A DNA stretch of 64,000 nucleotides. Source: Natronosalvus caseinilyticus. GTDB taxonomy: Archaea > Halobacteriota > Halobacteria > Halobacteriales > Natrialbaceae. The notes under the pieces are model-generated. The model worked only from the letters and a program-made list of their open reading frames with translations. It was not told the DNA's origin and did no database searches. Of this stretch, positions 2,769-64,000 are shown one piece after another. The stretch lies in contig NZ_CP071596.1 in NCBI RefSeq assembly GCF_017357105.1, forward strand, positions 1,922,001-1,986,000. Direction: 5' to 3'. Every line of letters starts with the position of its first letter. The stretch's first letter is position 1. Position numbers and translations under genes: made by a program.

Positions 2769-2815
2769 GATACATCACCCACACCGGTTATTCGCCGTCC
2801 CGACGAACTGGGAGT

Positions 2816-10706: not shown

Positions 10707-10856
10707 TGTGTGCACAACCATGATAGACCAGTGTTTAAACTTAATGGTCGATTATGATAATACTCCTAATACACCTTAACGCCCCTCCTGTGGGACTCTA
10801 TGACACCATCATGATTTATAGTAAAGATTTTTACTCACATTGCGTGAGGTGAACCC
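10707..10856. promoter_or_regulatory. Divergent promoter region of mamS operon and mct
   Basis: AT-rich compared with the genes on both sides. For mamS (minus) a TTTAAA element occupies 10734-10739, about 28-33 nt before the start. For mct (plus) TTTATA is at 10815-10820 and a ribosome-binding GAGGTGA at 10846-10852. A short palindrome TGTGCACA lies at 10708-10715, at the mamS start, and ATTATGATAAT at 10753-10763 is a near-palindrome in the middle. Such elements could bind a common regulator of the cycle; none is identified. Confidence 0.6.
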
Positions 10857-23272: not shown

Positions 23273-23426
23273 GCGGTTTCGGGACCGACGCGGCGAACGC
23301 AATCGCTCGCTACCGGTCGATACGGTGGGGTTACTTAATCGTCTCAGGACGGTCGTGTTCGACAGTGACTGACGAGACCGGGCGGCTAGACGACTCGCAG
23401 ACGACACCACGTCGGAGGTGACTCCG

Positions 23427-26400
23427 GTGAGCGAGCGCGCCGGTCTCGAGTCCCGCGGTACGCCGCCAGTTCTCGTGATCGACCCGACCGATAGCGTCGG
23501 CGAGATGGCGCGAACGCTCGAGGACGTCCTCGGCCCGAGTGCCGTTCACCGGGTGACCGACCTCGGGACGGCCCTCGAGTACCTCGAGGTCGCGCAGGCA
23601 GGCTGTCTGGTGTACCCGATTGACCTCCCGCCGACCGATCTGGAACGCGTTCGCGAGCGCGCCGACTGTCCGCTCCTGGCGATTGCGAGCGGCGCCGACG
23701 CCGAGGCGGCGCTCGAGGCCGGAGCGACGGACGTACTCGACCCGGACGCCTCGCGAGCGGAGGCTCGCGCACGCGTGGAAACACTATTAAATGCGTCACC
23801 GTCCGCCGCCGACCAGACCCGAACGGCGCTCGAACGGGCCGCCCTCGAGAACGGACCCGGGACGGCTCTCGTCGTCGACTCGACGGGCACCGTCGAGGCC
23901 GCCCTGCCCTCCGTCGAAACCGTGCTGGGCTACACGCCGAGTGAACTCGTCGATCGGCCCGTCGAGGAGGTCGTCCACGACGACCGACAATCGATCCGAC
24001 GCGCACTCGAGGTGGCACGAACCTCGTCGGCGGACGAGGTGGGGGACGAAGCGGGGGACGAGACGGAGGACGAGGGGGGAGTTGAGACGAGAGACGCCCC
24101 GACCTGGCCGCAAACCGTACAGCTTCGCCACGCCGATGGCACGTGGCGAACGCACGTCGCGACGGTGAGAGGCGGCGACCCGGTACCCGACGACAGCCTC
24201 GTTCTGACTGTCGGCCCCGCCCCGGAATCGGACTCGACCGACGTCGAAGCCTGGGTCGGCGCGCTCGAGCGCCCGGCGTTCGCCGTCGACGAGACGTGGC
24301 GGATCGTCGCGGCGTCCGACGAAGCCAGCGTCCTCTTCGTCGACGGTCTCACGGTCCGTACCCCGATTCAGGAGGCGCTGCCGGCGGACCGTCACGAGGC
24401 GATTCTCGACCACCTTCGGGAGGCTCGAGAGAGCGGGTCGTCGGTTCGGTTTCGGACGTCGCTCTCCCTCGACGGGGAGGGGTCACCGGACGAGGAAGGA
24501 TCGACGCTCGAGTGGGTGGCCGCGCCCACGGACTCGGGCGTGCTGGCCATCGCCGTGGGTGCGTCGACCGATCGCGACGAGGCGTCACCGAAGGACGAGG
24601 CGGGTCCGGCCGTCGAGACGGCACGGGCGCTCGAGACGGTGACGACGGCGCTCCGAATCGGTGTCGTCGTCTTCGACCGGGAGACGGAGCGAACGCTCGA
24701 GGCGAACCCGGTCGCGCGGGAACTGCTGGGCGCGACGGACGTGCTCGCCGGAACACTCGATTCACTGGTCGACGAACGGACGTGCGACAGAATCCGACGT
24801 CGAGCGGGCGACTCCACGGTACGGCGCGCGGACACCTTCGAGGCGACCGTCCGAACGGGGGACGGCGATCGAACCGTCTCGGCGACCGTCGTGTCGCTGT
24901 CTCGAGACCGGGCGGCGTTCTGCGTGCTCGGCGACCGGCCGCCGTCGGCGGACGACGCCATCGTCTCCGTCCTCTCCCGGACGAGTCGCGCGCTCCGGTC
25001 GGCGAGTTCGCCGTCGGTAGTGAGCCAGCACCTCGCCGACGGCGCCCTCGCGCTTACCCCATCGTCGGCCGCCTGCTGTTACCTGCTCGACGGTGAGCGA
25101 CTCTATCCGGCGGCCGTCGCGCCGACCGATGCGGATCCGACGATACACTTCCCGACCCTCGACTGTGCGGACGTCCCGGCGCTCGACCCGCGGCGGCTGT
25201 CGGGACCGTCGCTCGGCCGTCTCGAGTCGGGAGCGTTCGACCCGCTGCTCGCAACGGGGGCGGTGGCGACCGATCGGGTGTTCGTCGCTCCAGTCGGCGA
25301 CCGCGGGGTCGTCGTCGCCACGGGACTTGGCCTGCGGACGCTCGATTCGACGGACGTCGAGGCGACCGACTGGATGACGGCGCTGGCCGCGACCGAACTC
25401 GAGACGATGGATCGCCGGCACGCGCTCGAGGCACTGGAGGAGACGGTCGACCGCCTCGAAGCGGATCGCGACCGACTGGGTGAGCTCGAGGCGGTCGTCC
25501 AGGGGCTCGAGTCCACGCTGGCCGACGCCTCGGATCGCCGGGCCACCGAGTCGGTACTCTGCGCCGACCTGGCGGCGCTCGAGTGGGTCGACGGCGCCTG
25601 GTTCGGTGACGTCGATCCGGCCGCCGAGACCGTCACCGAGCGAGCGAGCGCTGGGTCGTTGACCTCGGGTTCGCCGATCGGAACCGACGGCTTCGTAGAA
25701 GACGTCGACTCGATTTCGGCGGCGATCGAATTGAGATCTGTGAGCCACGTCCCCGCCGCCGACCGGAACACGCCGGGGACGGTGGGACGAACCGACCGTC
25801 GTGGTCGATCAGACCGCCCCGACGACCGGGCCGGCGACGCCGTCTATCTCCCGCTGTCGTTCGACGACCGGCGATACGGCGTGCTGGCGCTCTCCATCCC
25901 GGCGGCTACCGTGACGTCGGACTTGCTCGAGCGACTCAAGACCCTCCGAACGCACCTCTCGCTCGCCTTCGCCGTCGGCGAGTACCGACGGTTCCTGACC
26001 GCCGAGGACCGACTCGAACTCTCGTTCACGCTCCCGTCGGCCGACGACGGGGCGGACCGTCCTCGAACCGGGCCGGGGGAGCCGACGGAGGGGAACCAGT
26101 CGGGTGATCCCCTCGTCGTCCTCGCCACACGCTGTCGGTGCCGAATCGACCTACTGGCGCTCTCGGAGGGGCCGAGCGGGACGTCCGTCGTGTGCTCGAT
26201 TGCAGACGACGACCTCGAGGCGGCGACCGTTCGCTCGACCGCCGACGAAATCGAGGGGCTCGAGGCGCTCGACGTATCGAGCGAACGAGGCGCCCGTCTC
26301 CACGTCGAGGCGCGCCTCGTCGGCGAGACGCTCGTCGGACTGGTGGGCGCACATGGGGGAGATCTCCGCACGATAGACGGACGCGAGCGGCAACCGACGT

Positions 26401-26738
26401 TCGTCGTAGATCTCGCGCCCGGAACCAGCATCCGGTCGTTCGTCGACCGCCTCGAGCGCTGGGAACCTGGCGTCGAACTCCACTCGAAACGGGTCGTCTC
26501 GTCCGGGGACCGCCCGTACGGCTCGTTCGAGGACCGTATCAGAGAGCAGCTGACCGAGCGCCAGCTCGAGACGCTCAGGGTCGCGTACTACGCGGGCTAC
26601 TTCGCGTCCCCGCGCGAGCACACCGGCGGCGAGGTCGCCGACCTGCTCGACGTGTCCCAGCCGACGTTCACGCGACACTTGCGCATCGCCGAGCGAAAGG
26701 TGTACGAACTCCTGTTCGAGGCAGGGCGGCTCGAGTGA
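23427..26738 (+). CDS. Bat-type multidomain sensor and HTH_10 regulator
   Basis: 1103 residues from GTG 23427 (GGAGG is 8 nt before it; GTG 23418 is the alternative). Layout seen: receiver-like start (VLVIDPTDSVGEMARTLEDVL) whose expected phospho-Asp region reads CLVYPIDLPP; two to three PAS-like blocks (about residues 130-195, 275-360, 395-505); a GAF block (about 515-660); a short coiled coil; a second GAF-like and HTH-associated region (about 705-1030); and HTH_10 at the end (LTERQLETLRVAYYAGYFASPRE). Probable redox or light sensor controlling transcription; target unknown. No bacterio-opsin gene is in the window. Confidence 0.85.
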   Translation: MSERAGLESRGTPPVLVIDPTDSVGEMARTLEDVLGPSAVHRVTDLGTALEYLEVAQAGCLVYPIDLPPTDLERVRERADCPLLAIASGADAEAALEAGATDVLDPDASRAEARARVETLLNASPSAADQTRTALERAALENGPGTALVVDSTGTVEAALPSVETVLGYTPSELVDRPVEEVVHDDRQSIRRALEVARTSSADEVGDEAGDETEDEGGVETRDAPTWPQTVQLRHADGTWRTHVATVRGGDPVPDDSLVLTVGPAPESDSTDVEAWVGALERPAFAVDETWRIVAASDEASVLFVDGLTVRTPIQEALPADRHEAILDHLREARESGSSVRFRTSLSLDGEGSPDEEGSTLEWVAAPTDSGVLAIAVGASTDRDEASPKDEAGPAVETARALETVTTALRIGVVVFDRETERTLEANPVARELLGATDVLAGTLDSLVDERTCDRIRRRAGDSTVRRADTFEATVRTGDGDRTVSATVVSLSRDRAAFCVLGDRPPSADDAIVSVLSRTSRALRSASSPSVVSQHLADGALALTPSSAACCYLLDGERLYPAAVAPTDADPTIHFPTLDCADVPALDPRRLSGPSLGRLESGAFDPLLATGAVATDRVFVAPVGDRGVVVATGLGLRTLDSTDVEATDWMTALAATELETMDRRHALEALEETVDRLEADRDRLGELEAVVQGLESTLADASDRRATESVLCADLAALEWVDGAWFGDVDPAAETVTERASAGSLTSGSPIGTDGFVEDVDSISAAIELRSVSHVPAADRNTPGTVGRTDRRGRSDRPDDRAGDAVYLPLSFDDRRYGVLALSIPAATVTSDLLERLKTLRTHLSLAFAVGEYRRFLTAEDRLELSFTLPSADDGADRPRTGPGEPTEGNQSGDPLVVLATRCRCRIDLLALSEGPSGTSVVCSIADDDLEAATVRSTADEIEGLEALDVSSERGARLHVEARLVGETLVGLVGAHGGDLRTIDGRERQPTFVVDLAPGTSIRSFVDRLERWEPGVELHSKRVVSSGDRPYGSFEDRIREQLTERQLETLRVAYYAGYFASPREHTGGEVADLLDVSQPTFTRHLRIAERKVYELLFEAGRLE

Positions 26739-26993: not shown

Positions 26994-27683
26994 ATGAGCA
27001 CCAACCCACTCGATGCCGATTCGGTTCCGCTTCGATCTCAGGCCGACGACGGAATCGTCGCCGAACTCGAACTCGATCACGACGAACTGATTCTCCGACC
27101 GACGCTTCGTCGGCTCTCCAGCGGTCGCGTCGAGCTGGAGTACTCGAGCGAGCTCGAGGACGGCACCACGGTGATATTCTTCGTCGCCGAGGCCGCTCCT
27201 TTCGACGAACTCGAATCTGCGCTCGCGCGCGATACCACGGTCTCGAATCCGACGCTGGTCGAACGGTACCCCCGAAGACGGGTGTATCGCGCCACGGTTA
27301 CCGACCGAGCGGTCCGATTCACGAGCCAGGTCGTCGAAGCCGGCGGCCGCGTCCTCGATCTCTCGAGCGGACAGACCGGCTGGGTACTTCGAACGCGCTT
27401 TCCCGACCGCGATAGCTTACTGGCGTTCAACCAGTCGTGTCGCCGACGAGGAATCTCGTTTCACGTCAACCACTTGCGCCTGGCGAAAGCGAACGAGACG
27501 ACCGCGATCGGGTTGACCGAAAAACAGGAAGAACTTCTGAGCGTCGCCTACGAGGAGGGGTACTTCGACGTTCCGCGCGGCATCTCGCAGGACGAACTCG
27601 CCGAGACGCTGGGGATCTCGAAATCCGCCGTCTCACAGCGGCTCCGGCGGGCAGTGACCGAGCTGTGTGAGTCGTCGCTCTAG
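26994..27683 (+). CDS. HTH_10 (bacterio-opsin activator type) transcription regulator
   Basis: 229 residues. HTH_10 is at the C-terminus: LTEKQEELLSVAYEEGYFDVPRGISQDELAETLGISKSAVSQRLRRAVTEL (about residues 172-222). The N-terminal half is the usual beta-rich domain (VAELELDHDELILRPTLRRL). It lies 255 nt after the Bat-type gene on the same strand, a gap with no clear ORF, so it probably has its own promoter. Target unknown. Confidence 0.85.
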   Translation: MSTNPLDADSVPLRSQADDGIVAELELDHDELILRPTLRRLSSGRVELEYSSELEDGTTVIFFVAEAAPFDELESALARDTTVSNPTLVERYPRRRVYRATVTDRAVRFTSQVVEAGGRVLDLSSGQTGWVLRTRFPDRDSLLAFNQSCRRRGISFHVNHLRLAKANETTAIGLTEKQEELLSVAYEEGYFDVPRGISQDELAETLGISKSAVSQRLRRAVTELCESSL

Positions 27684-38750: not shown

Positions 38751-39059
38751 ATTGATCTCGTTTATTTCAATCATATTGAAGGGAACCAACCGGTACATAT
38801 GGGTACGAACTGAACATGCTCCTTAACGAATAGAGGAATTCACAGGGGTAAGCGCTTCTATGATCGTATTGGCCAGACTACCTTGATGATCATAACCACG
38901 ACAACTGTCCGGAAGATATGTGTAGAGTGACCTATGAACGAATCTAGGAAGAGATCATGGAGTAGGCAGTTATCGCTCGAGATGGCTTCCAGAACAGAGA
39001 TAGGCAGGAACAGAGAAAGAGAGTGACCGAAAAAGAGGGAGAAATTACGCTCTCAAAAG

Positions 39060-39621
39060 TTCATAATCGGTTTCTCGCTTGCATTTTCCGGGTTAGCGCT
39101 CACCAGGAAGAGAAGCGTTACGTAGAGAGCCTCAAGCCAGTTTCGCGAAATTGGATTCGTCGGTTTAGAGCCTTCTCTGCAGGGATCTCACTCACCCACT
39201 CGAGGCGAACGGGTGGCCGTCCAGTACACGATTCAAAATTTCATAATCGGTTCCCTGCTATCGGTTTTGAGGTGCTAGACAGCACTGGAATCACCGATGG
39301 GACTGAGACACTTTTCGAGAAGGAAAACACACCATAGAGCGTGTCTCGAACCGGTTATGCACGTTTGACGCTTCGAGCCCTGCATCTGCTCAGCGAGTAC
39401 CGATCACCAAATGGACCTCGCTCGCCCATCAGCCCCGGCAATCACCAACCATACGCGAACGCTCCTTAATTGCCTCGAGGGGGCTCTTACTCGACGATTA
39501 GGTCATAAGTTATACGCTCGAGGGAGATCCTCATCGTGAAATCTTTCCTAGACTAACTTCATAATCGGCCCTCGAAACAGAGACCATACCTACTCTTCCG
39601 GACGTAAAACCCGATTATGAA
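39060..39621. repeat. Cluster of TTCATAATCGG boxes
   Basis: Direct copies at 39060-39070, 39240-39250 and 39558-39568; reverse-complement CCGATTATGAA at 39611-39621. The first two are flanked by AAAA(A/G)T before and TT(T)C after and are exactly 180 nt apart. A weaker relative (CCGGTTATGCA) lies near 39352. All are outside genes. Confidence 0.5.
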
Positions 39622-39680
39622 CCATCTGAAAGGTGATTAGTACGTTTTGTTGTAACCTCCAGTAGATTCCATGAATTCTC

Positions 39681-39707
39681 TGCTGAATATAGAGGAGGAG
39701 TTCAGCA
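39681..39707. repeat. TGCTGAA/TTCAGCA inverted repeat
   Basis: TGCTGAA (39681-39687) and TTCAGCA (39701-39707) form a perfect 7-bp inverted repeat around TATAGAGGAGGAG. Member of the same family as the elements at 38714, 40037 and 41698. A hairpin of this type could be a transposon end or a transcription terminator for something now lost. Confidence 0.5.
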
Positions 39708-40036: not shown

Positions 40037-40068
40037 GCGTGCGAGATATAGAGGAAGAGTTCAGCACG
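40037..40068. repeat. Short element with GCGTGCGA and TTCAGCACG, copy
   Basis: Reads GCGTGCGAGATATAGAGG then TTCAGCACG. The same order (GGCGTGCGA, ATACAGAGG, TTCAGCACGA) is found at 41698-41730, and CTGTCAG precedes both. Conserved over about 45 nt with changes in the middle, so they are copies of one ancestral element. Confidence 0.5.
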
Positions 40069-40119
40069 ATAGTGTGGCGTATTTCCTCGGTCTGCTCAGT
40101 AGCCCACTTGTTTGTCAAC

Positions 40120-40302
40120 TCAGTCGTCACGGAAATCCGTAGTACTCGTCTTTTTGACGGCCTGAAATTCGATTGACCCGCATTGGCATCCGTTTCTCGC
40201 CCCGATCGGCTGCGCCGTTCCGTCAGGCCATTGCTTCGCTGCATAGGCAGCTCCACAATTGAGACATATAACGGCTGCTCGTTTGCTCTTTCCATTAGGC
40301 AT
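40120..40302 (-). CDS. Tiny zinc-ribbon protein
   Basis: 60 residues. CLNCGAAYAAKQWPDGTAQPIGARNGCQCGS: CxxC plus CxC-type ligands, with a basic N-terminus (MPNGKSKRAAVICLNCG). Starts at ATG 40302 with a GTATTA promoter-like element about 25 nt upstream on the minus strand. The clean Cys arrangement argues for a real gene. Function unknown; lies beside the HTH_10 regulator at 40369, same strand. Confidence 0.6.
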   Translation of the reverse strand: MPNGKSKRAAVICLNCGAAYAAKQWPDGTAQPIGARNGCQCGSIEFQAVKKTSTTDFRDD

Positions 40303-40368
40303 AACTATTCCTTCAACGAGTAATACCGTCAGCGCTTCTTTTGGGTATCCAACGGGTTTTTAAGTACC

Positions 40369-41028
40369 TTATCGATTCGACTCCATTGTTTCGGGGAGGG
40401 TACTCTCGAGGATGTGTTTCATCCCTCGACGGAGCCGAGACGCGATGGCCTGCTGAGAGATGCCGAGTTCGTCGCCGAGTTCTTCCATCGTCACTTCGCG
40501 CGGGGATTCGAAGTACCCACGCTCGTGGGCGAGTACCAGTGTGTCTTGTTGCTTGTCAGTGAGTGCGGCTTCGGTTTCGGTCTCAACCGGTGTCAGTGCG
40601 TGTAGTTCCGTCAGCGTGACCGGGATCTCTAACTCTCGACAGCGGGATTGAAAGGTTGCAAGATCGCTTCGACTGTCTCCGCGAATGTCGAACGTCCACC
40701 GACGGCTCGTGCCAGTTGCTTTGATGAGCGGAACGCCGATCTCAGTCAGCACGCTCAGCACGTCGTCGTATTCGAGTGACCACTCGACACGCAGGAGATA
40801 CTCGCCATCAACGGAATCGACGAGTTGGATGTCCCTCACGCCTGGATGGGCAGCAAACGCGTCCTCGATGTCCTCGACTTTCGTTCCTCGAACCCAGAAG
40901 TAGGGAATCACCACGTCCTGTGAAGGGATCAGTCGCTCCAGCTCGACCGTCACGTCCGGGAGTTGTGCGAAGACGGTGCCGAGGGGGAACTGATCGGATG
41001 GAACGGTATAGGTCGCCTCAGTCGCCAT
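40369..41028 (-). CDS. HTH_10 (bacterio-opsin activator type) transcription regulator
   Basis: 219 residues from ATG 41028 (MATEATYTVPSDQFPLGTVF). Closely related to the protein at 2816: shared FPLGTVF, VTVELERLIP, VIPYFWVRG, LVDSVD and C-terminal HTH LTDKQQDTLVLAHERGYFESPREVTMEELGDELGISQQAIASRLRRG (about residues 158-210). It sits in the gene-poor, lower-GC stretch near a DUF7344-like and a HalOD1 gene. The in-frame ATG 41067 is the alternative start. Confidence 0.85.
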   Translation of the reverse strand: MATEATYTVPSDQFPLGTVFAQLPDVTVELERLIPSQDVVIPYFWVRGTKVEDIEDAFAAHPGVRDIQLVDSVDGEYLLRVEWSLEYDDVLSVLTEIGVPLIKATGTSRRWTFDIRGDSRSDLATFQSRCRELEIPVTLTELHALTPVETETEAALTDKQQDTLVLAHERGYFESPREVTMEELGDELGISQQAIASRLRRGMKHILESTLPETMESNR

Positions 41029-41287
41029 GACTCGAACGATGTCACACTGATTGTAAAACTCTTCCATGGAACAATGTGGAGGGGACGAAGGACTCCGTCA
41101 ATCCGCTTTGGTCGCTCTCGCCGTGCTAGCGACGCGCCCTGAGTTCTGCACATACCAAATGAATCGCCTGGCTCCTTTCAAAAATGACATGGGCGACTCA
41201 GAGGGTGTATGCAGTACGGGCAGCCCATTTATTTCGCCGTTTCAGGAAGAGATCAATCACTACATACGAACGCTTACAGACCAACTC

Positions 41288-41494
41288 TCACGATAGCCGT
41301 ACACGGTCGATTTCAGCAATATTCGAATTCATAACGTATACTCTGATACAGTCCTCGCAAACGAATGCCCAATAGATCTTCCCACTCTCATATGTTACTT
41401 TAGTTACTTTCCCATCCTCACTTTGACAGTCGGTACATTCGATAGTTGCTTGAGGGGATAGAAACGGATACTCATGTTCTACAAAATAGTTCAT
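41288..41494 (-). CDS. Small Cys-rich hypothetical protein, AT-rich
   Basis: 68 residues: MNYFVEHEYPFLSPQATIEC, then CTDC, GKVTKVTYESGKIYWAFVCEDC. CxxC twice (TDC and EDC pairs) about 27 residues apart, so a zinc-ribbon-like fold is likely. Base composition is clearly lower in GC than the window average, which suggests recent arrival. No recognised family. Confidence 0.5.
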   Translation of the reverse strand: MNYFVEHEYPFLSPQATIECTDCQSEDGKVTKVTYESGKIYWAFVCEDCIRVYVMNSNIAEIDRVRLS

Positions 41495-41963
41495 GGTTTC
41501 ACTACAGGCTACAGTGACTTATCCTTGGTGTGATTATTTGGGTTACAAGACAGACTCTCTATTCTTCTGAACTGGTGTTACGTCTATTATCTGTACTGAG
41601 CGATCATCGTCTTCGCAGATCGAGCCAAATGTCGTGCATCATTCGCGCTCTGTATCTTGTAGAGACTCGACTAACTACCGAACTGCTGTCAGAAATGGCG
41701 TGCGAAATACAGAGGTGCCATTCAGCACGACGACTTCGTTTGTTTCACGCCGACACCTGAGAACCACCCACTCACTACACGTACGCACAAGCAGTAACCG
41801 GTATCTCACAGTAGGCAATTGGCTCACGACTCCAGCGAGGGACACGGAGAATCCTCGGCAATCCCCTCATTGGGTTGAAGACCTGAACTCAATACTATAT
41901 AAAGAAGTTGTATAACCAAAATGAAGTCTCACGTGGAGCGGTCTCTTCAGAGTTAAGTACACC
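41495..41963. other. Gene-poor stretch with repeat remnants and promoter of the next gene
   Basis: 469 nt with no credible gene. It contains CATTCGCGCTCTGTAT (41640-41655), repeated exactly at 42736-42751, and the GGCGTGCGA/ATACAGAGG/TTCAGCACGA element at 41698-41730. The last part (CTATATAAAG near 41892-41901) is a TATA box for the gene at 41964. The two frames here (41530, 41634) run through the repeats and are rejected. Confidence 0.5.
41698..41730. repeat. Short element with GCGTGCGA and TTCAGCACG, copy
   Basis: GGCGTGCGA (41698-41706), ATACAGAGG (41707-41715) and TTCAGCACGA (41721-41730), matching the copy at 40037-40068. Lies outside genes in the accessory stretch. Confidence 0.5.
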
Positions 41964-42320
41964 ATGTTCACGGAAACCGACTCCTCGCCGATGATTCCCA
42001 GGAGAGATACGCTCCTTCTCGCGCTCGCCAATCGGCACTGTCGTTTTGTCATCGAGTACTTCAAAGACGCGTCCGAAGACCACGCCACTGTCGATGACAT
42101 TGCAACCGCGTTTGCCCGACGTGACCACGCAGACGAGACGCAGGTTGCAATCCGGCTCCACCACGCTGCACTCCCCAAACTGGACGACGCTGGACTCGTT
42201 GACTACGACAGGCGGACCAAAATGGTCCGATATCACGGTCACTCGCAACTCGAACGGGTAGCGGAGCGCTTCTCCGAGTCCGGTTCTCCCAAATGCCATG
42301 GAGGAATGAGAAGTACATGA
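41964..42320 (+). CDS. DUF7344-like winged-helix protein
   Basis: 118 residues. Signature as in the gene at 1401: LLLALANRHCRFVIEYF, then AIRLHHAALPKLDDAGLVDYD (the LHHxxLPKL block), DNA-binding winged helix. Promoter TATA (CTATATAAAG) about 65 nt upstream. Its TGA overlaps the ATG of the HalOD1 gene (ATGA at 42317), so the two proteins are made together. Located near the HTH_10 gene at 40369. Confidence 0.75.
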   Translation: MFTETDSSPMIPRRDTLLLALANRHCRFVIEYFKDASEDHATVDDIATAFARRDHADETQVAIRLHHAALPKLDDAGLVDYDRRTKMVRYHGHSQLERVAERFSESGSPKCHGGMRST

Positions 42321-42610
42321 CGCAAGACAAGCCCAGGCGAACGAGCCAAACACGGGAATGGTACACTCCTAATCAGGACCGCTCGTTGACCGAAGCGGTG
42401 CTCGACGCCATCGAGGACTATAAGGGGGAAGACCTCTTGCGAGCGGATTTCGTCCTCTACGAGGACATAGACGCTGACGCCCTCAATTCCCTCTTTCGCC
42501 ACGACGCACCGTCGAGAACGACCGTGACGTTCGGCACCGACGGGGTCAAGGTCGAACTCTGGGGGGGTGGTGGGGTCGAGATTCGCGTCACGGGGCGATC
42601 AGTCGAATAA
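42317..42610 (+). CDS. HalOD1 output-domain protein
   Basis: 97 residues. HalOD1: RSLTEAVLDAIEDYKGEDLL, the conserved DIDADALNSLFRHDAPSRTTVTF block, then VKVELWGGGGVEIRVTG strands. Overlaps the DUF7344-like gene by 4 nt (ATGA), a direct sign of joint function. Here the glycine-rich GGGG turn is longer than usual. Same pairing of families as at 1401-3903. Confidence 0.75.
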   Translation: MTQDKPRRTSQTREWYTPNQDRSLTEAVLDAIEDYKGEDLLRADFVLYEDIDADALNSLFRHDAPSRTTVTFGTDGVKVELWGGGGVEIRVTGRSVE

Positions 42611-42922
42611 GTGGCCGAGACTGGTCCAGAACGCGCTCTGGGGGCAGTGTTGGATAGGCGACCATTGCCGTGATGAGTTCTTCACTTGGACTGATCGATC
42701 AGCACCCTCCGTGGATCAGCCCTCAGCTCGGGCCACATTCGCGCTCTGTATTCAGCACAGTCGTTAAAATCTATAACTGTAATAGGTATTTCAACAAATA
42801 TGGCAGTTCGACGACCATCAGTCCTCGCACTCGAGAGTGAACGCCTCGAAACCTACGTCGTCGCTCGGCCTATATACTGGGCGCTCATCGACGCTACAGA
42901 AACGTCGAGATCGCGGGCGGGG
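42611..42922. other. Gene-free stretch with a repeat remnant
   Basis: 312 nt. Carries CATTCGCGCTCTGTAT (42736-42751) and CTCTGTATTCAGCAC (42744-42758), both duplicated elsewhere in the island. No ORF with native features; the frame at 42567-42767 reads through these repeats. This is the right-hand edge of the accessory stretch; composition returns to normal in the next gene. Confidence 0.45.
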
Positions 42923-46281: not shown

Positions 46282-46599
46282 GATATCCCCCGTGGCGGCT
46301 CGGTCATTGAGGTGGTGTTTTGCTGGTACCGAAATAGACGTTACGACGTAGTGCGATAGCTGACTGACCAGTTAGTATGCACGAGCTAACGCTCGGGACG
46401 TCACTGACGCCGAGAGAGCGAAGCCCTGATATCACCCGTGTGAATACGTGGTGGTAGCAGCCGTATTCTTCCCACCAATGTTCATACTCGCTCACCCATC
46501 TGCCGGCCGCAACGACGGACGAACGCCCCGAAATTACCACGGGACGCCGCGCTCGAGTCGCACTCTCGTCCACGACGAGGTCTCTCGAGGTGATCCGAC
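46282..46599. other. Divergent intergenic region between trkA and an APC-Usp gene
   Basis: 318 nt without a gene. An imperfect dyad CTGACTG-AC-CAGTTAG lies near 46360-46376. A GAGGTGATC ribosome-binding site at 46584-46592 precedes GTG 46600 of the permease gene. Start of trkA on the other strand shows GGGGGATATC before GTG. Both genes may be controlled from here. Confidence 0.45.
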
Positions 46600-48960
46600 G
46601 TGAGTGGCGACGAAGAACTCGCCAAGGACCTCGGGCCCCTCGCGGCGCTGACGATCGGGATCGGGACGATGATCGGGGCGGGCATCTTCGTCCTGCCGGG
46701 GACCGCCGTCTTCCGGGCCGGACCGTTCGCCGCGGCGACGTTCGTCCTCGGCGGCGTGATCGCCCTCTTCACGGCGCTGTCGGCCTCCGAACTGGGGACG
46801 GCGATGCCGAAATCCGGCGGTGCGTACTTCTACGTCAATCGCGCACTCGGACCGCTGTTCGGCTCGATCACCGGGTGGGCCAACTGGATCGGCCTCGCGT
46901 TCGCCTCCGCGTTCTACATGTACGGTCTCGGCGAGTACGTCAACGACCTGGTCGGCCTCGGCGCCCTCGCGCTTGGGCCTGTGACGCTCGGCCCCGCCCA
47001 GTTGATCGGCCTGGTGGGGGCGCTTTTCTTCATCGCCGTCAACTACATCGGCGCGAAGGAGACCGGAACCCTCCAGATCGTCATCGTGCTCTTACTTGTG
47101 GGGATTCTGGCGCTGTTCTCGATCGTCGGTCTGGCTAACGCCGACCTGGACTCGCTCGCCGGATCCGCGCAACCGGGCATGGCCGCTGAAATCCTTCCCG
47201 TCACGGGGATCATCTTCGTCTCCTACCTCGGCTTCGTCCAGATCACCTCCGTCGCCGAGGAGATCAAAGATCCCGGTCGAAACCTCCCCCGTGCCGTGAT
47301 CGGGTCGGTCGTCATCGTCACGACCATCTACGCGTTCTTCCTCGTGGTCTTGCTCGCGGCCGTGCCGAACGAACTCGTCGCCCAGAACAATACGGCCGTC
47401 GTCGACGCCGCTCGCCTCCTGTTCGGCAAGTACGACCTCCTCGGGTACAGCCTCGGCGCCTTCGGCGCTGGCCTTCTGCTCTTCGGTGGCCTGCTCGCGA
47501 CGGCCTCCTCGGCGAACGCCTCAATCCTGTCGTCTTCGCGGATCAACTTCGCGATGGGTCGAGAAAAGATCGTCACTCCGAAACTCAACGAGATCCATCC
47601 CCGATTCGGAACGCCGTACAAGTCCATCGCCGTCACAGGTGGGCTGATCCTCTTCTTCCTGATCGTGGGCGACCTCGCATTGCTCTCGACGGCCGGATCG
47701 GTCCTGCACCTGATCGTCTACGGACTGTTGAACATCGCGTTGATCGTCATGCGCGAGACCGAACCCGAGGGGTACGACCCGGACTTCGAGGTACCGCTCT
47801 ATCCTATCGTCCCGATCATCGGGACGCTCTCCTCGTTCGCCCTCATCGTTTACATCGAACCGCGCGTCGTCTACCTCTCGCTGGGGCTGGTCATCTTCGC
47901 GGCGCTGTGGTATCTCTTCTACGCCCGACGGCACGTCGAAGCGGCTGGCGTCCTCGACGCCTGGATCCTCGACCGCTCGGAACTGCTCCCGGACGTCGCT
48001 GTCTCCGCCGCGACGAGCGTCGCTCCCGAACAGAGCGATTACCGGGTCATGGTGCCGCTGGCCAACCCCGAACACGAGAAGGACCTGATCTCCCTCGGAT
48101 CGGCCATCGCCAACCAGCACGACGGTACCGTCGTCGCCGTCAACATCGTCGACGTCCCGAGACAGACCGCTCTCGAGGCCGCGCGCGAACAGAAAGCACA
48201 CGAGACCGCCCACGACCTGCTCGAGCAAGCACAGGCCGACGCCCAGACTTACGGTGCCGATGTCGAGACGCACATCGTCCTCTCGCACGACCCGTTCGAG
48301 GAAATCTTCGGAGCGGCGAAACGATATGGCGCCGACGTGACGGTGATGGGCTGGGGTCCCGAATCCCACGGTGCCCCGGGCCGGGCCGAAACGACCATCG
48401 ACGAACTCGCTCACTCGCTCCCGTGTGACTTCCTCGTCTTCCGCGACCGCGGGTTCGACCCCTCGAGAATCTTGCTCCCGACCGCCGGCGGCCCCGACTC
48501 CGAACTCGCTGCCGCGGTCGCAACGACCCTCCAGTCGCAGTACGACGCCGACGTGACGCTGCTGCACGTGACCGACCACGGCGAGCGTGAGCAGGGAGAG
48601 GCGTTCCTCTCGTCCTGGGCGGCCGATCACGGACTCGAGGACGCGAGGCTCCGCGTCGAGACCGGCGACGTCCAGAGCCGGATCGCCGAGGCTGCCGAAA
48701 GTGCTACACTTCTCCTGATCGGGGCGACCGAGAAGGGCGTTCTCTCGCGACTCGTTCGCGGGTCGCTCGTGCTCGACGTCCTGGACGAGGTCGAGTGTTC
48801 GGTCCTGCTGGCGGAGAAAAAGCACACGCGAAGCCTCTGGGACCGACTCTTCGGGGGCGGAACCGGCGACAGCGACCTCGAAGACGAACCGACGGGCGTC
48901 GAACCTGAGCCGACGACGCCCGACGTCGACGAGAGCAACTCCGAAACCACCACCCAGTAA
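46600..48960 (+). CDS. APC-family amino acid permease fused to two universal-stress domains
   Basis: 786 residues. About 12 membrane helices with APC signatures near the start: [24 protein letters not shown] (the G-x-G-x-x-x-G region) and [37 protein letters not shown]. From residue about 485 two UspA-like domains follow: one from [14 protein letters not shown], the second from [28 protein letters not shown] with [19 protein letters not shown] (G-x-x-x-G-x(9)-G(S/T) loop, so ATP binding likely). Amino-acid uptake with cytoplasmic stress sensing. Paralogue at 49563. Confidence 0.9.
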
Positions 48961-49138: not shown

Positions 49139-49570
49139 ATGAGCGACGAGCCGTTTCGGCGTGTCCTAGTGCCGATTGCGAACGAAGCGGACGCCCGAGT
49201 AACGGGTAAAGCCGTCGCCGATCGGTTCGACGACAGCACCCTGATTCCAATCTACGTCGTCGAAAAAGCTGGCGGTGCTCCCGATGCTGCAGGCGTCGAA
49301 CAGCGAGAGGAGTTCGCCGAAACCCTCTTCAAGATCTTCGAGGCGGTCATCGACGAATCCACGCTCATCGTCGAACCCACCGTTGGATACGGGATCGACG
49401 TCGCGGCGACGATTCTCGAGGTCGCCGACGACGAACGCGCCGACGCGATCGTTTTCGTCCCGCGCAGCGAGAGTCGGTGGCGACAGCTACTAACGGGGGA
49501 CGTCGCGCGAAAATTGATCAACCGAACCGATCGACCGGTCCTGATCCTGCCGGGTGACCGAGATGAGTGA
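49139..49570 (+). CDS. UspA-domain universal stress protein
   Basis: 143 residues from ATG 49139 (GAGGTG lies 8 nt upstream; an upstream in-frame start at 49010 is rejected). Usp fold: RRVLVPIANEADARVTGKAV, VEPTVGYGIDVAATILEVADDERADAIVFVPR and the C-terminal loop RWRQLLTGDVARKLINRTDRPVLILPG. Lacks the classic G-x-x-x-G-x(9)-G(S/T) run, so nucleotide binding is doubtful. Its end overlaps the next gene by 8 nt. It sits between the two permease fusions, likely as a partner. Confidence 0.82.
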   Translation: MSDEPFRRVLVPIANEADARVTGKAVADRFDDSTLIPIYVVEKAGGAPDAAGVEQREEFAETLFKIFEAVIDESTLIVEPTVGYGIDVAATILEVADDERADAIVFVPRSESRWRQLLTGDVARKLINRTDRPVLILPGDRDE

Positions 49571-51875
49571 CGAGGAACTCGCCAAGGACCTCGGCCTGAT
49601 TCCTGCAATGACCATTGGCATCGGGACGATGATCGGAGCGGGCATCTTCGTCCTCCCCGGTGAGGCCGCCCAGGGAACGGGCCCGATCGTCGTGATCTCG
49701 TTCCTCGTCGGCGGGCTCATCGCCATGGTCAACGCCCTGTCGGTCTCCGAACTCGGAACGGCGATGCCGAAAGCCGGCGGCGCTTACTACTACGTCAACC
49801 GCGCGCTCGGCCCGCTGTTCGGTTCGATATCTGGACTGGGCGACTGGCTCGGCCTCGCCTTCGCCTCGGCCTTCTACACCATAGGGTTCGGCCGTTACCT
49901 GGGTGAACTCGTCGAGTTACCCTCGATCCTGTTTCTCAGTAACGTTCAGGTCGGGGCGATCGTTGCCGGCGCGGTCTTCGTCGGCGTCAACTACATCGGC
50001 GCGAAGGAGACAGGCGGCGTACAGACGATCATCGTCTCCATTTTGCTCGCGATCCTGGGGATCTTCACAATCGCGGGCTGGTTCGCCTTCGACTGGGGAA
50101 CGGTGTCGGGAAGCGGCGGCTACACGCCGTTCGGCACCGCCGAACTCTTGCCGGCGACCGGCCTCGTCTTCGTCTCGTTCCTGGGGTACGCCAAGATCGC
50201 CACTGTCGGCGAGGAGATGAAGAACCCGGGACGGAATCTCCCAATCGCCATCGTCGGGAGCGTCGCCATCGTCACGGTGCTCTACGGCATTCTCGTGACG
50301 ATCATGCTCGGCGTCGTCCCGTGGCCGGACCTCGACCTCGAGGCGCCGGTCGCCCAGGCGACCGAAGTGGCGTTCCCCGGAAACTACGCGGGTGCGGCCG
50401 CGGTGATCATGGCCCTCGGTGCGCTGCTGGCGACAGCCTCCTCGGCGAACGCCTCGATCCTGGCGTCGGCCCGGATCAACTTCGCGATGGGACGGGACAA
50501 GATCGTCAACGACTGGCTCAACGAAATCCATCCGCGATTCGCGACACCCTACCGATCAATTATCGTTACCGGCGGGCTGATCCTCGTCTTCGTCATCCTC
50601 ATGGGCGGTGACGTCAAGGTGCTCGCGGAAGCGGCGAGCGTCCTCCACCTGATCGTCTACGCCCTGATGAACGCCGCGCTAATCGTCTTCCGCGAGACCG
50701 AGCATCCCGACTACGATCCCGACTTCACGGTTCCGCTGTACCCGATCGTACCGATTCTCGGGTTCGTCCTGTCGCTGGGACTCATCTACTTCATGGACAC
50801 CACCTCCCAGATCCTGGCGGTGGTGTTCATCGTCGGGGCCGTCCTCTGGTACGTTCTCTACGCACGCTATCGCACGCCGATCCAGGGCGTCCTCGGGGAG
50901 TACGTCCGCGACCGGTCCGAGGAGATGCCCGACATCGCGGTTTCGGCTGCCGAGGCTGCCTCGCCCGACGCGACCGCCCCCTATAACGTGATGGTCCCCG
51001 TCTCGAACCCCCGGACCGAGGACGAACTGGTCGCCCTCGGCTGTACGATGGCCAACCAAAAGGGCGGCGTCGTTCACGCTGTCCACGTCGTGCAGGTTCC
51101 CGACCAGACCTCACTCGATTACGTCGCCGATCAGATCGAACGAATCGACGACGAATCGGATCAGCTCTTCGAAAACGCCCGCGCGGTTGCCGCCGAGTAC
51201 GACGTCGACATCGAAACGCACACCGTCGTCTCCCACCGATCGCTCGAGGAGGTCGTCGACTCCGCCGAACGACTGAACGCCGACACCGTCGTGATGGGAT
51301 GGAGTCCGAGCAGGCCCTGGACCAGCGGGCGAACGGGTGGCGCGCTCGATGAACTCACGACGAACCTCCCATGTGACTTCCTGGTGTTCAAGGACCGTGG
51401 GTTCGACCCCTCGCGCGTACTCGTGCCGACGGCCGGCGGTCCCGACTCGGACCTTAGCGCCGAGGCGGCCAAGGCGCTTCGGGACGTCCACGGCGCCGAC
51501 GTGTCGATCTTGCACGTCGTCGACGAGGATACCGACCGGGCGAAAGGAACGGCGTTCCTCGGCACCTGGGCCGACGATCACGGGCTCGGCAACGCGACCC
51601 TCCTCGTAGAAACAGACGGCAACGTCGAGGGAGCCATCGAGCGCGCCGCGAACGATCACACGATGGTGGTCCTCGGCGCAACCAGGAAGGGGCTGCTCTC
51701 CCGCCTCGTCGGCGGTTCGCTCGTGTTCGACGTCGTCGACGAGGTCGACTGTTCGGTTCTGCTCGCCGAACGTCCGGCCAAGCGGTCGCTCCGGGAACGG
51801 CTCTTCGGCCGTCCAGGAGTCGAAGCGTCCACGGAAACGGAAGAAGGCGAGCCAAAAATGGAATCCGGCACCTGA
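49563..51875 (+). CDS. Second APC permease fused to two universal-stress domains
   Basis: 770 residues from ATG 49563. Near-identical architecture to the gene at 46600: [56 protein letters not shown], and two Usp domains at the C-terminus (YNVMVPVSNPRTEDELVALGC and [28 protein letters not shown] with VVLGATRKGLLSRLVGGS). Starts within the upstream Usp gene. Likely gene duplication followed by divergence; substrate may differ. TrkH follows. Confidence 0.9.
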   Translation: MSDEELAKDLGLIPAMTIGIGTMIGAGIFVLPGEAAQGTGPIVVISFLVGGLIAMVNALSVSELGTAMPKAGGAYYYVNRALGPLFGSISGLGDWLGLAFASAFYTIGFGRYLGELVELPSILFLSNVQVGAIVAGAVFVGVNYIGAKETGGVQTIIVSILLAILGIFTIAGWFAFDWGTVSGSGGYTPFGTAELLPATGLVFVSFLGYAKIATVGEEMKNPGRNLPIAIVGSVAIVTVLYGILVTIMLGVVPWPDLDLEAPVAQATEVAFPGNYAGAAAVIMALGALLATASSANASILASARINFAMGRDKIVNDWLNEIHPRFATPYRSIIVTGGLILVFVILMGGDVKVLAEAASVLHLIVYALMNAALIVFRETEHPDYDPDFTVPLYPIVPILGFVLSLGLIYFMDTTSQILAVVFIVGAVLWYVLYARYRTPIQGVLGEYVRDRSEEMPDIAVSAAEAASPDATAPYNVMVPVSNPRTEDELVALGCTMANQKGGVVHAVHVVQVPDQTSLDYVADQIERIDDESDQLFENARAVAAEYDVDIETHTVVSHRSLEEVVDSAERLNADTVVMGWSPSRPWTSGRTGGALDELTTNLPCDFLVFKDRGFDPSRVLVPTAGGPDSDLSAEAAKALRDVHGADVSILHVVDEDTDRAKGTAFLGTWADDHGLGNATLLVETDGNVEGAIERAANDHTMVVLGATRKGLLSRLVGGSLVFDVVDEVDCSVLLAERPAKRSLRERLFGRPGVEASTETEEGEPKMESGT

Positions 51876-56764: not shown

Positions 56765-58048
56765 TCAGCGGTGATCGTACACTCGCTTGACCTTCCCGAC
56801 CTCGGTTCGCTCGATCGAGCCGTACTCGACGAGGGCGAGCGTGTCGGGCGTCAACGAGAGCGTGCTCGAGATCGCCTCGAGCAACCGGTCTCGGAGCGCT
56901 TCTTCGTCCCCGTCGAACCCGCGCTCGAGTTCCACCGTCACCTCGAGTCGGTCGAGCGCGTCCTCGCGGTAGAGGTCGATCCGGTACTGGGGGGCGACGG
57001 CGTCGAACTCGAGGATCACGGCCTCGAGCTGGCTGGGGTAGAGGTTGACGCCGCGGACGATCAGCAGGTCGTCGGCGCGGCCGGTGACGCCGTCCATTCG
57101 GATCGTCGTCCGGCCGCAGTCACAGGGTTCGTCGATCAGGGCGGTCATGTCGCCGGTCCGGTACCGGAGGACGGGCAGGGCTTCCTTCGTGAGCGAGGTG
57201 AGCACGAGTTCGCCTTCCTCACCGGGCGGCAAGGGTTCGCCGGAGTCGGGGTCGACCACCTCGGGGTAGAAGTGGTCGGTCTGGATATGCAGGCCGTCCT
57301 GGGCGTGGGCGCACTCGACGGCGACGCCGGGGCCGATCAGTTCCGAGAGGCCGTAGTTCTCGATGCCCGTGACGCCGAGGCGCTCCTCGATGGCCTCCCG
57401 CATCGGCTCGGTACAGGGTTCGGCGCCGTAGAGGACGATCGACAGCGGGAGTTCCCGCGGATCGACGCCCATCTCCTCGGCCCGTTCGGCGAAGTACAGC
57501 GCGTAGGAGGGCGTACAACAGAGCGCGTCGCTCTCGAGATCCGCGGCGAGTTCGACCTGGCGCTGGGTGTTGCCGCTGCTCGTCGGGATCACCGTCGCCC
57601 CGAGCGACTCCGCTCCGGCGTGAAAGCCGAGGCCACCCGTAAAGAGCCCGTAGCCGTAGGCGTTCTGGACCGTGTCGTCCGGCCCGAGTTCGGCGGCTCG
57701 CATCGCTCGTTCCATCACCTCGTTCCAGAGCTCGAGGTCGCCCACGGTGTAGGCGACGATCTTCGGCTTTCCGGTGGTTCCCGAGGAGGCGTGGATACGG
57801 ACGATGTCTTCGTCGTCGACGGCGAACAGGCCGTCGGGGTAGGTGTCTCGAAAGTCGGCTTTCGTCGTGAACGGCAGTTTGGTGACGTCCTCGAGCGTCT
57901 CGATGTCGTCGGCCGTGACGCCAGCCGCTGTGAGCCGTTCGTCGTAAAATGGGACGTTCTCGCGAACGCGTTCGACGGTCTCGCGGAGCCGCTTCGTCTG
58001 CAGTTCCCGGCGTTCCTCCCTCGGGAGCCGTTCGTCGGATGCGACCAT
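56765..58048 (-). CDS. paaK: Phenylacetate-CoA ligase
   Basis: 427 residues. Adenylate-forming family: HASSGTTGKPKIVAYT (P-loop like), YGYGLFTGGLGFHAG, GAEPCTEPMREAIEERLGV and LRYRTGDMTALI with the ending KVKRVYDHR. Activates phenylacetate with CoA, the first step of the paa pathway. Same strand as and downstream of the paaABCD cluster, with a 146-nt gap after the PaaD zinc ribbon gene. A paralogue is at 62899. Confidence 0.93.
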   Translation of the reverse strand: MVASDERLPREERRELQTKRLRETVERVRENVPFYDERLTAAGVTADDIETLEDVTKLPFTTKADFRDTYPDGLFAVDDEDIVRIHASSGTTGKPKIVAYTVGDLELWNEVMERAMRAAELGPDDTVQNAYGYGLFTGGLGFHAGAESLGATVIPTSSGNTQRQVELAADLESDALCCTPSYALYFAERAEEMGVDPRELPLSIVLYGAEPCTEPMREAIEERLGVTGIENYGLSELIGPGVAVECAHAQDGLHIQTDHFYPEVVDPDSGEPLPPGEEGELVLTSLTKEALPVLRYRTGDMTALIDEPCDCGRTTIRMDGVTGRADDLLIVRGVNLYPSQLEAVILEFDAVAPQYRIDLYREDALDRLEVTVELERGFDGDEEALRDRLLEAISSTLSLTPDTLALVEYGSIERTEVGKVKRVYDHR

Positions 58049-61153: not shown

Positions 61154-61792
61154 ATGATCGAGGAGTGTCTCGCCGTCGAATTCCGGGTGCAGCACGACGA
61201 TTGCCCGCTCGCCGAGGCGACAAAGTCAGTCGACCTCGAGGTCCACGCCCAGGCGCCACAGCTGCGGGCCGACGGCTACGACCTGCTGCAGTTTAGCTCG
61301 CCGCGAAACGACCACTTCGTCGAGACGCTCGACGCCGACGACCGCATCCGCTACCTCCACGTCACGGAGGTCGACGGACGGTACCGATTCCGGTGTCTCT
61401 CGAAGCAACCCTGCGTGGTCCACGACCTGATCAACGGCGGCCTGATCGTCGAGACGCTCCGGTATCGAAACGGCGCCGCCACGGTCTTCGGAGCCGTCGT
61501 CGGCCGGGACGTGCTCAAGAACGTGATGGAGACTGCGGGCGACACCGTCGGCGTGCGCCTCGAGCGCGTCTACCCGATGGAGTCGGAGGCCCAGGAAGCC
61601 CCGAGCCAGCAGTGGGATCTGACGCCCGCCCAGGAGGAGTGTATCCGGGTCGCCGTGGAGATGGGTTACTTCGAAATCCCGCGGGGGACGAGTTCGGAGG
61701 CGGTGGCGACGGAACTGGGGATCAGCAAGTCGGCGTTTCTCGAGCGGGTTCGGCGGGCGGAAGAGTCGCTGTTTCGACAGATTTTCGCGTGA
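61154..61792 (+). CDS. HTH_10 transcription regulator, divergent from paa genes
   Basis: 212 residues. C-terminal HTH: LTPAQEECIRVAVEMGYFEIPRGTSSEAVATELGISKSAFLERVRRAEESL (about residues 155-205). N-terminal domain: LAVEFRVQHDDCPLAEATKSV and RYLHVTEVDGRYRFRC. TTTTAAATA at 61124-61132 is 22-30 nt before ATG 61154, so leaderless. Its back-to-back position with paaA suggests it controls the paa operon. Confidence 0.85.
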   Translation: MIEECLAVEFRVQHDDCPLAEATKSVDLEVHAQAPQLRADGYDLLQFSSPRNDHFVETLDADDRIRYLHVTEVDGRYRFRCLSKQPCVVHDLINGGLIVETLRYRNGAATVFGAVVGRDVLKNVMETAGDTVGVRLERVYPMESEAQEAPSQQWDLTPAQEECIRVAVEMGYFEIPRGTSSEAVATELGISKSAFLERVRRAEESLFRQIFA

Positions 61793-62898: not shown

Positions 62899-64000
62899 TC
62901 AGCGGTGGTCGTAGACGCGCTTGACCTTCCCAACCTCGGTTCGCTCGATGCCACCAGGCTCCTCGATCGTGAGGGTATCGGGGGTGAACGAGAGCACGTT
63001 CTGGAGTCGGGTGAGCACCCGGTCGCGCAGTTCCTCGCGGTCGCCGTCGAAGTCGTGCTCGCACTCGATGGTGATCTCGAGGGTGTCCAGGTTGTTCTCT
63101 CTATTCAGGTCGATCCGGTAGTGCGGGGCGACCTCGTCGAATTCGAGGACGACGTCCTCGACCTCGCTCGGGTAGAAGTTGACCCCGCGGACGATCACGA
63201 GGTCGTCGGCGCGGCCGGTGACGTTGTCCATGCGGACCGTGGTGCGACCGCACTCACACTCTCCACTGGAAAGCGTCGTCAGGTCGCCGGTCCGGTACCG
63301 GAGGACGGGCAGAGCCTCCTTCGAGAGCGTCGTGAGGACGAGTTCGCCCTCCTCGCCCTCCGGCAGGGGCTCGCCGGTGTCGGGATCGACGATCTCCGGG
63401 TAGAACCGGTCCTCGTGGATGTGCAGTCCCTCCTGGGCTTCCACGCACTCGATGGAGACGCCGGGGCCGACGATCTCGGAGAGGCCGTAAATGTCGATTC
63501 CCTTTACGCCGAGGCGTTCCTCGATGGCCTCGCGCATCGGGTCCGTGCAGGGTTCGGCACCGAAGATGACCACCCGCAGCGGGAGGTCCTCGATGTCGAC
63601 GCCCATGTCCGCCGCGGTCTCGGCGAGATACAGCGCGTACGACGGCGTGCAGGCGATGGCGTCGCTCTCGAGGTCCTCGAGCATCTCGACCTGGCGCTGG
63701 GTGTTGCCGCCGCCGATCGGGATTACGGTCGCGCCCAGTTCCTCGACGCCGTAGTGGAGCCCGAGGCCCCCGGTGAAGAGCCCGTAGCCGTAGGCGTTCT
63801 GGACCGTGTCGCCCGCGCCGAGGCCGGCAGCCTCGAGACACCGGGCGACGGCGTCGCTCCAGACGTCTACGTCGTTTTGCGTGTAAGAGACGATCTTCGG
63901 CTTCCCCGTGGTTCCCGAGGAGGCGTGGATCCGGACGATGTCCTCGTCGTCGACGGCGAACAGGCCGTCGGGGTACTCGTCGCGGAAGTCCTCCTTCGTC
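62899..64000 (-). CDS. paaK: Phenylacetate-CoA ligase paralogue, 5' end cut by window
   Basis: Partial, 367 codons visible; the reading frame stays open to the end at 64000 (ASSGTTGKPKIVSYTQ is near 63897-63950). Same hallmarks as the copy at 56765: YGYGLFTGGLGLHYG, GGGNTQRQVEML, EPCTDPMREAIEERLGVKGIDIYGLSE, LRYRTGDLTTL and the final KVKRVYDHR. Any internal start (for example 63684) would cut the adenylation site. A different acyl substrate is possible. Flanks the paa block on the far side from the first paaK. Confidence 0.9.
   Translation of the reverse strand, partial: TKEDFRDEYPDGLFAVDDEDIVRIHASSGTTGKPKIVSYTQNDVDVWSDAVARCLEAAGLGAGDTVQNAYGYGLFTGGLGLHYGVEELGATVIPIGGGNTQRQVEMLEDLESDAIACTPSYALYLAETAADMGVDIEDLPLRVVIFGAEPCTDPMREAIEERLGVKGIDIYGLSEIVGPGVSIECVEAQEGLHIHEDRFYPEIVDPDTGEPLPEGEEGELVLTTLSKEALPVLRYRTGDLTTLSSGECECGRTTVRMDNVTGRADDLVIVRGVNFYPSEVEDVVLEFDEVAPHYRIDLNRENNLDTLEITIECEHDFDGDREELRDRVLTRLQNVLSFTPDTLTIEEPGGIERTEVGKVKRVYDHR

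Follow-up and report, generated by a model that had tools for sequence, protein, structure and literature searches.

HalOD1, DUF7344 and a small unnamed protein family as candidate partners of HTH_10 regulators in haloarchaea

Why do genes of the same three families, the HTH_10 regulators and the small HalOD1 and DUF7344 proteins, lie together at two places within 64,000 nucleotides of the genome of Natronosalvus caseinilyticus (here called the window, to whose positions coordinates refer unless a contig or locus is named), and which of these genes would be the partner of which? Bat, NarO and DmsR, like other HTH_10 proteins, act as activators, according to the accessible parts of PMC5847659 and PMC11218638. 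HalOD1 is a signal-transduction domain present in more than 2,000 proteins in 2018; in the accessible parts of Galperin et al. 2018 (PMC5847659) it is tied to response regulators, metal binding is guessed, and its function is left open. No paper naming DUF7344 was found in the literature searched.

An earlier note on this DNA had described the two places as holding the same trio of families. The families are indeed present at both, and every gene named scores above its Pfam cut-off, but the trio left out a second HTH_10 gene at the first place (T1, 1873-2529). The genes of the two sites are the following.

Site 1
1401-1817, minus strand: DUF7344 gene D (PF24035, 56.6 bits), 55-bp gap behind the HTH_10 gene T1
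1873-2529, minus strand: BAT-HTH_10 regulator gene T1 (PF04967, 64.5 bits; PF15915, 41.4 bits)
2816-3457, plus strand: BAT-HTH_10 regulator gene T2 (PF04967, 66.3 bits; PF15915, 49.5 bits)
3550-3903, plus strand: HalOD1 gene H, behind T2 (PF18545, 65.9 bits; 117 aa)
3900-4085, plus strand: gene X, 61 aa, with an ATGA overlap with HalOD1 (3900-3903), reaching the cut-off of neither a Pfam nor an NCBIfam family

Site 2
40369-41067, minus strand: intact HTH_10 gene of a partnerless lineage (HTH_10, 58.3 bits), with a 90% copy on contig C2
41800-41868, plus strand: HTH_10 remnant, the last ~23 codons with one stop, found by tblastn before the DUF7344 gene
41964-42320, plus strand: DUF7344 gene (PF24035, 54.7 bits), with a 90% paralogue at C1:1141134-1141526
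42317-42610, plus strand: HalOD1 gene, with an ATGA overlap with DUF7344 (PF18545, 47.2 bits for the longer 42293-42610 frame of 105 aa)

Each of the three HTH_10 proteins encoded at the two sites scores above cut-off for both BAT-HTH_10 domains (PF15915 and PF04967), both HalOD1 proteins pass PF18545 (65.9 and 47.2 bits against 26.3), and both DUF7344 proteins pass PF24035 (56.6 and 54.7 bits against 27.8). As had been claimed, the HTH_10 genes at 2816 and 40369 encode close relatives (52% identical over 211 aa), and the two reported ATGA overlaps are real (42317-42320 between DUF7344 and HalOD1, 3900-3903 between HalOD1 and X). The DUF7344 proteins of the two sites share 33% identity over 82 aa and the HalOD1 proteins give no BLASTP alignment with each other, so neither site is a simple copy of the other.

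The predicted HalOD1 model (strand-strand-three helices-three strands) is of middling confidence (pLDDT 72, pTM 0.61), as is that of X (helix-strand-strand; pLDDT 75, pTM 0.50). Foldseek gave no match under E 0.001 with either model, and VIA-align, run with the HalOD1 model only, reached a best Z of 4.0, with no fold assigned. Designed armadillo repeats and similar proteins returned by the HalOD1 profile sequence search of the PDB were taken as spurious. The HTH_10 profile had no match in the PDB and DUF7344 no convincing one; a winged helix is hinted at for DUF7344 by weak matches to HTH_20 in 3 of 24 members and to HTH_5 in one of 24.

Several other identities were considered and rejected. 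The HalOD1 proteins are not REC-HalOD1 response regulators, HalOD1 being the sole Pfam family up to E 1 in the frames of 117 and 105 aa, nor are they DdfA (NF053557), for which they score 50.1 and 30.0 bits against a cut-off of 70. A role in anti-phage defence was dismissed with PADLOC, which gave just two matches among eight proteins, both partial and weak at 15-16 bits, and a haloviral origin was set aside with no useful PHROG match.

Co-location and gene order

The genome of N. caseinilyticus holds 34 HalOD1, 51 DUF7344 and 43 HTH_10 genes, merged from 36, 54 and 43 rows (three of the DUF7344 rows being below the cut-off). The window itself also contains a HalOD1 gene at 15224-15571 and HTH_10 genes at 23418-26738 (1106 aa), 26994-27683 and 61154-61792. 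Within a distance of 3 kb, DUF7344 genes accompany 14 of the 34 HalOD1 genes (2.4 expected; reached in none of 5000 circular shifts) and HTH_10 genes accompany eight (1.8 expected; one of 5000 shifts). Four HalOD1 genes have both neighbours, with 0.11 expected and none of 5000 shifts reaching this count, or 42 of 5000 if HTH_10 alone is shifted. The contig extents of this test were rounded guesses, and the true values were used in the orientation counts below.

Six further genomes of five family codes, picked for low contig number before any co-location was known, behave in the same way when pooled. HalOD1 lies near DUF7344 in 24 of 109 cases (3.9 expected) and near HTH_10 in at least 23 of 109 (4.4 expected), DUF7344 lies near HTH_10 in at least 21 of 136 (5.3 expected), and at least nine HalOD1 genes have both neighbours (0.16 expected); none of 1000 shifts reaches any of these counts. 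The HTH_10 counts rest on 150 of 191 rows and are minimum values. Four sub-cut-off DUF7344 rows were dropped from this set and one sub-cut-off HalOD1 row was retained, tandem domain hits were merged, and the second contig of one genome (G234) was taken as 400 kb, an assumed length. The suggestion that co-location exceeds what family size would give, and that the module recurs, is thus borne out by the 3-kb circular-shift test in the own genome and in the six others. Co-location is well beyond chance in the own genome and in the pooled genomes, but not in each genome: in one of them (G112) none of 18 HalOD1 genes is near DUF7344, which counts against the explanation proposed below.

The constant element of these neighbourhoods is an HTH_10 gene of the BAT-HTH_10 type upstream, with HalOD1 or DUF7344 downstream on the same strand. 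Within 900 bp, among 150 of the 191 HTH_10 rows of the six genomes, the order HTH_10 then HalOD1 occurs in at least 15 of 18 pairs (0.34 expected) and HTH_10 then DUF7344 in at least 14 of 16 (0.43 expected), while the reverse orders number zero and one, respectively, among the matches listed. The own genome agrees, with HTH_10 then HalOD1 in five of six pairs (0.13 expected) and HTH_10 then DUF7344 in all three (0.26 expected). The partnered regulators comprise short BAT-HTH_10 proteins as well as multidomain-sized ones of 428-1141 aa. Close neighbours made up of DUF7344 and HalOD1 number three and three by order in the own genome and three and two in the six genomes (each about 0.2-0.3 expected), and direct neighbours are found in either order and also convergent. 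Proteins of 411 aa with two HalOD1 domains were also seen, divergent from DUF7344, on both contigs of the genome (L027, 3269-4504; L026, 6189-7424).

The kind of partner tracks the regulator clade. On a quick tree of 84 regulators, built without bootstraps and including part of the own-genome HTH_10 genes, the clade of the site-1 regulator has 52 rows, of which 45 carry HalOD1 behind the regulator and seven carry nothing. Its sister clade of 30, which holds the site-2 regulator, has DUF7344 in 14 rows, DUF7344 then HalOD1 in two, and nothing in 14. The changes of partner state on the tree amount to 12, compared with 32.8 in shuffles.

A conserved divergent locus at site 1

Site 1 (1401-4085) is a conserved, intact locus of five genes, in which T1 is followed by DUF7344 on one strand and, divergently, T2 is followed by HalOD1 and X on the other. 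The order D<-T1 T2->H recurs at three loci of different family codes (L091, L092 and L093; f1, f12 and f17), where each gene best matches its counterparts, at identities of 63-83% for T1, 76-78% for T2, 44-52% for D and 43-47% for H. A scan of genome contigs for the T2 locus kept 80 loci, of which the 51 with at least 62% identity to T2 were counted. HalOD1 follows T2 in 43 of these orthologous loci, a divergent T1 is present in 39 and DUF7344 lies behind T1 in 31; all four named genes occur together in 30, across many haloarchaeal genera. These numbers are lower bounds because some contigs stop within the locus. Among the genera are Natronorubrum, Natrinema, Halorubrum, Halorussus, Halovivax and Haladaptatus, with Natronorubrum bangense (L111) as one carrier of the intact locus; some of the loci are plasmid-borne (L123 and L138 among others), and the regulators can be near-identical (95%) between different families. 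A subset of the loci has an extra DUF7344 gene at about +1.3 kb. Once the module itself and the frames that overlap it or run antisense to it are set aside, no further family holds a steady place in ten or more of the 51 loci, and no flanking function gene is conserved in that many.

The small gene X belongs to the same arrangement. It was found by tblastn in 46 of the 51 loci (49 of 54 with L091-L093 included), mostly at +1.07 kb from T2 and nearer to it in L128, L148, L151 and L154. Of the 42 loci where HalOD1 and X are both present, 30 show a 4-bp overlap between the HalOD1 stop and the start of X, and nine an 11-bp one. Between the window copy and 25 orthologues, 368, 180 and 705 differences fall on the three codon positions, and dN is well under dS wherever dS is computable; X is therefore a protein under purifying selection. 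Its residue C38 is invariant in the 33 rows of the alignment. Pfam matched two of the 33 members, weakly and below cut-off, NCBIfam has no family for the window copy, and profile comparison gave no kinship with HalOD1.

Of 392 genomes from the order, 148 contain X at E 1e-5. HTH_10 and HalOD1 lie directly upstream in all of the best 30 loci. In 20 more distant loci, taken in rank order with one per genome, an HTH_10 gene is found in the 5-kb stretch in 17, HalOD1 is directly upstream in four, and several show the order D<-T X->. Distant X loci thus lie near HTH_10 with few of them having HalOD1, and X looks like a third kind of HTH_10 partner that is not restricted to the site-1 locus. X-like domains were also seen within open frames of about 411 codons (G329, C1:1303871-1304209; G357, C1:2795900), two of them in one frame, and X may occur as a domain of larger proteins as well.

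The spacer between T1 and T2, most commonly of 191 bp and of 286 bp in the window, carries a short palindrome, TGGTNNACCA, which has an intact and a degenerate copy in the window.

2581-2590, no strand assigned: palindrome TGGTACACCA, which lies upstream of T1 at ~60 nt from its ATG and is the sole TGGTNNACCA in the 64-kb window
2768-2777, plus strand: degenerate T2-side copy TGATACATCA, with two mismatches, at -48 from the T2 ATG and with GGTTAT following it; it aligns with the conserved T2-side palindrome

The pattern was counted in 37 of 40 spacers, three shorter than 150 bp being excluded. It is present in 32 of the 37, upstream of one or both starts and in two copies in 11, compared with means of 0.13 in shuffled and 0.15 in Markov sequences and with none in 36 coding controls; because the loci are related, the occurrences cannot be treated as independent. 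In 19 spacers the palindrome begins at -57 relative to T1, and in 15 at -49 or -48 relative to T2; it adjoins TTTTGT and GGTTAT stretches, inferred to be TATA-like. Genome-wide, TGGTNNACCA occurs 56 times and the reversed pattern 38 times, a mild over-representation; with so weak an excess no regulon is visible, and that idea was dropped. The palindromes are consistent with predicted binding in local auto- or cross-regulation only.

A decayed operon beside a solo regulator at site 2

The proposal that both sites are one and the same module does not hold, since site 2 has a different history. The DNA at 41590-42705 is 88% identical to a paralogous copy on C1, whose DUF7344 and HalOD1 genes span C1:1141134-1141816; the HalOD1 paralogue (81%, C1:1141523-1141816) has an identical overlap with DUF7344. 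At both copies a C-terminal HTH_10 piece of about 23 residues precedes DUF7344. The site-2 remnant resembles the C-termini of HTH_10 proteins from operons with DUF7344 and HalOD1 (74-78% identity for the window copy and 79-83% for the L023 copy). The best four DUF7344 loci of other genomes (61-66%) all have HTH_10, DUF7344 and HalOD1 in this order on one strand, with HTH_10 a partial match in L062 and L064, and a more divergent operon of the same order was found in L094. In those four the first HalOD1 start lies 6 nt beyond the first base of the DUF7344 stop, so there is no ATGA overlap. Used as queries, the site-2 HalOD1 protein was found in 29 of 293 genomes of several families, and the site-2 DUF7344 protein in 133 of 392.

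The intact HTH_10 gene at 40369 belongs to another lineage. It lies in a segment (40060-41655) that is duplicated on contig C2 at 89% identity, and the tree places it in a five-row clade (99% SH-aLRT) whose members are all partnerless. From the remnant, the relatives with a complete operon and the partnerless clade, site 2 reads as a decayed HTH_10-DUF7344-HalOD1 operon from which the regulator has been lost, beside a solo HTH_10 gene that was duplicated separately.

Other features surround this site. A dispersed repeat at 41590-41790, an imperfect inverted repeat by eye, has 21 places in the genome (E 1e-5, query 41560-41900), 16 of them within 3 kb of HTH_10, DUF7344 or HalOD1 genes, compared with 3.0 expected; its single-strand fold is not unusual (z 1.31), and no RNA family was found at site 2. 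Two small open reading frames lie beside the HTH_10 gene in the segment duplicated on C2, one (41288-41494) with a weak, below-cut-off likeness to the HVO_A0556 zinc finger and the other (40120-40302) with Cys pairs by eye. The adjoining stretch 38811-39696 is 81% identical to 10232-11122 of another HTH_10/DUF7344 locus (L030). Farther along the window are two internal DNA repeat pairs, probably duplicated genes (56765-57866 with 62899-64000, 77% identity; 46589-48815 with 49553-51769, 67%).

Partners, outputs or mere neighbours

From the observed gene order, orientation, stop-start overlap, conservation, palindromes and purifying selection on X, we infer a mechanism at the protein level. Haloarchaeal HTH_10 regulators would be co-encoded with small partners that can be exchanged for one another and include no fewer than three kinds, namely HalOD1, DUF7344 and X. 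At site 1, T1 and T2 are transcribed divergently from one spacer, with DUF7344 after T1 and the translationally coupled HalOD1 and X after T2. One or both regulators would bind TGGTNNACCA just upstream of the two promoters and regulate T1 and T2 transcription, both auto- and cross-wise, a HalOD1-X complex would modulate T2, and DUF7344 would modulate T1, in either case as signal input or anti-activation; the T1/T2 pair could then control genes elsewhere. Site 1 would thus probably be a self-contained, autoregulated switch. The whole explanation, including the exchangeable partners, the switch at site 1 and the decay of site 2, is given a probability of about one half.

Counted against it are the minority of regulators that bear a partner (the 150 HTH_10 genes listed form 29 directed pairs), the mild genome-wide excess of TGGTNNACCA, the middling HalOD1 and X models with their lack of a known fold match, the 14 of 30 partnerless rows in the clade of the site-2 regulator, the zero occurrences of TGGTNNACCA in 29 upstream regions of that second clade, and the window palindrome, intact on the T1 side only. 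A bolder version remains tentative: HalOD1, DUF7344 and X would make up a single class of co-encoded, interchangeable modulators acting on Bat-type regulators, and site 1 would be a self-contained two-regulator switch that is mobile and has spread across haloarchaea, with the HalOD1-X complex acting on T2 and DUF7344 on T1.

The small proteins might instead be outputs: they would be the first targets of the HTH_10 activator ahead of them and would exert their effect elsewhere, much as DdfA contributes to cell shape. Small genes downstream of a regulator in one transcription direction do look like the target of an adjacent activator; according to the accessible parts of the two papers, the HalOD1 protein DdfA is required for disk formation in Haloferax volcanii (PMC10869688) and the HalOD1 gene HVO_0777 is induced about tenfold in a low-salt transcriptome table (PMC12852389). 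This is nevertheless rather unlikely, given that members of the same small families stand behind a wide range of HTH_10 proteins, from short to multidomain ones, that HalOD1 and X share an ATGA overlap, and that the site-1 locus has no further conserved target genes.

More doubtful still is a neighbourhood without functional link, in which regulator genes accumulate in exchange-prone islands and travel jointly. The patchy spread of the site-2 HalOD1 protein, the 95% identity of site-1 regulators between different families, the duplicated segments at site 2 and the nearby dispersed repeat would all fit such exchange, which would not predict a fixed order and orientation, the stop-start overlap, promoter palindromes at fixed positions, or conservation over many genera with unrelated flanks.

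The earlier note had suggested HalOD1 as the partner or output of a winged-helix regulator, here taken to be DUF7344 with HTH_10 incidental; the enrichment of close DUF7344-HalOD1 neighbours in either order and the overlapping pair at site 2 and in its copy speak for this, but it is very improbable, with the DUF7344-HalOD1 orientation mixed and at times convergent while an HTH_10 gene upstream is the rule, the two genes on opposite strands behind different regulators at site 1, the site-2 pair following an HTH_10 gene in four other genomes, and the winged-helix fold weakly hinted.

On the reading of HalOD1, DUF7344 and X as exchangeable partners, their ties to HTH_10 by order, orientation, overlap and palindromes would make them testable partners of a partly studied regulator family, and site 1 offers a compact locus for testing them. 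The note's view that this is no named system agrees with the literature searched on HalOD1 and related terms, in whose accessible parts no description of the module was found; known families stand here in an arrangement not found described, together with an unnamed small family, X.

Comparison with known systems sets these loci apart in several respects. NarO and DmsR are, like the regulators of the two sites, short HTH_10-type (bacterio-opsin-activator-like) proteins without PAS and GAF domains. Compared by description, they differ in that no partner of the HalOD1, DUF7344 or X kind appears in the accessible parts of PMC11218638, where the motif for denitrification is given as CGAAYATDKTYG, whereas the site-1 palindrome is TGGTNNACCA. 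The HalOD1 proteins of Galperin et al. (PMC5847659) and DdfA (PMC10869688) belong to PF18545 and are stand-alone, as those of the window are, while the HTH_10-linked order, the coupling to X and the divergent locus are features of the window not found in the accessible parts of these two papers. A further resemblance, as judged from abstracts, is to Bat of Halobacterium salinarum with Brz and Brb, small co-regulators encoded in a neighbouring operon (PMC2253796, PMC3184054). Brz is a zinc-finger protein and Brb a small basic protein in those abstracts, and their likeness to HalOD1, DUF7344 and X, compared by description only, is that of small proteins placed beside an HTH_10 regulator.
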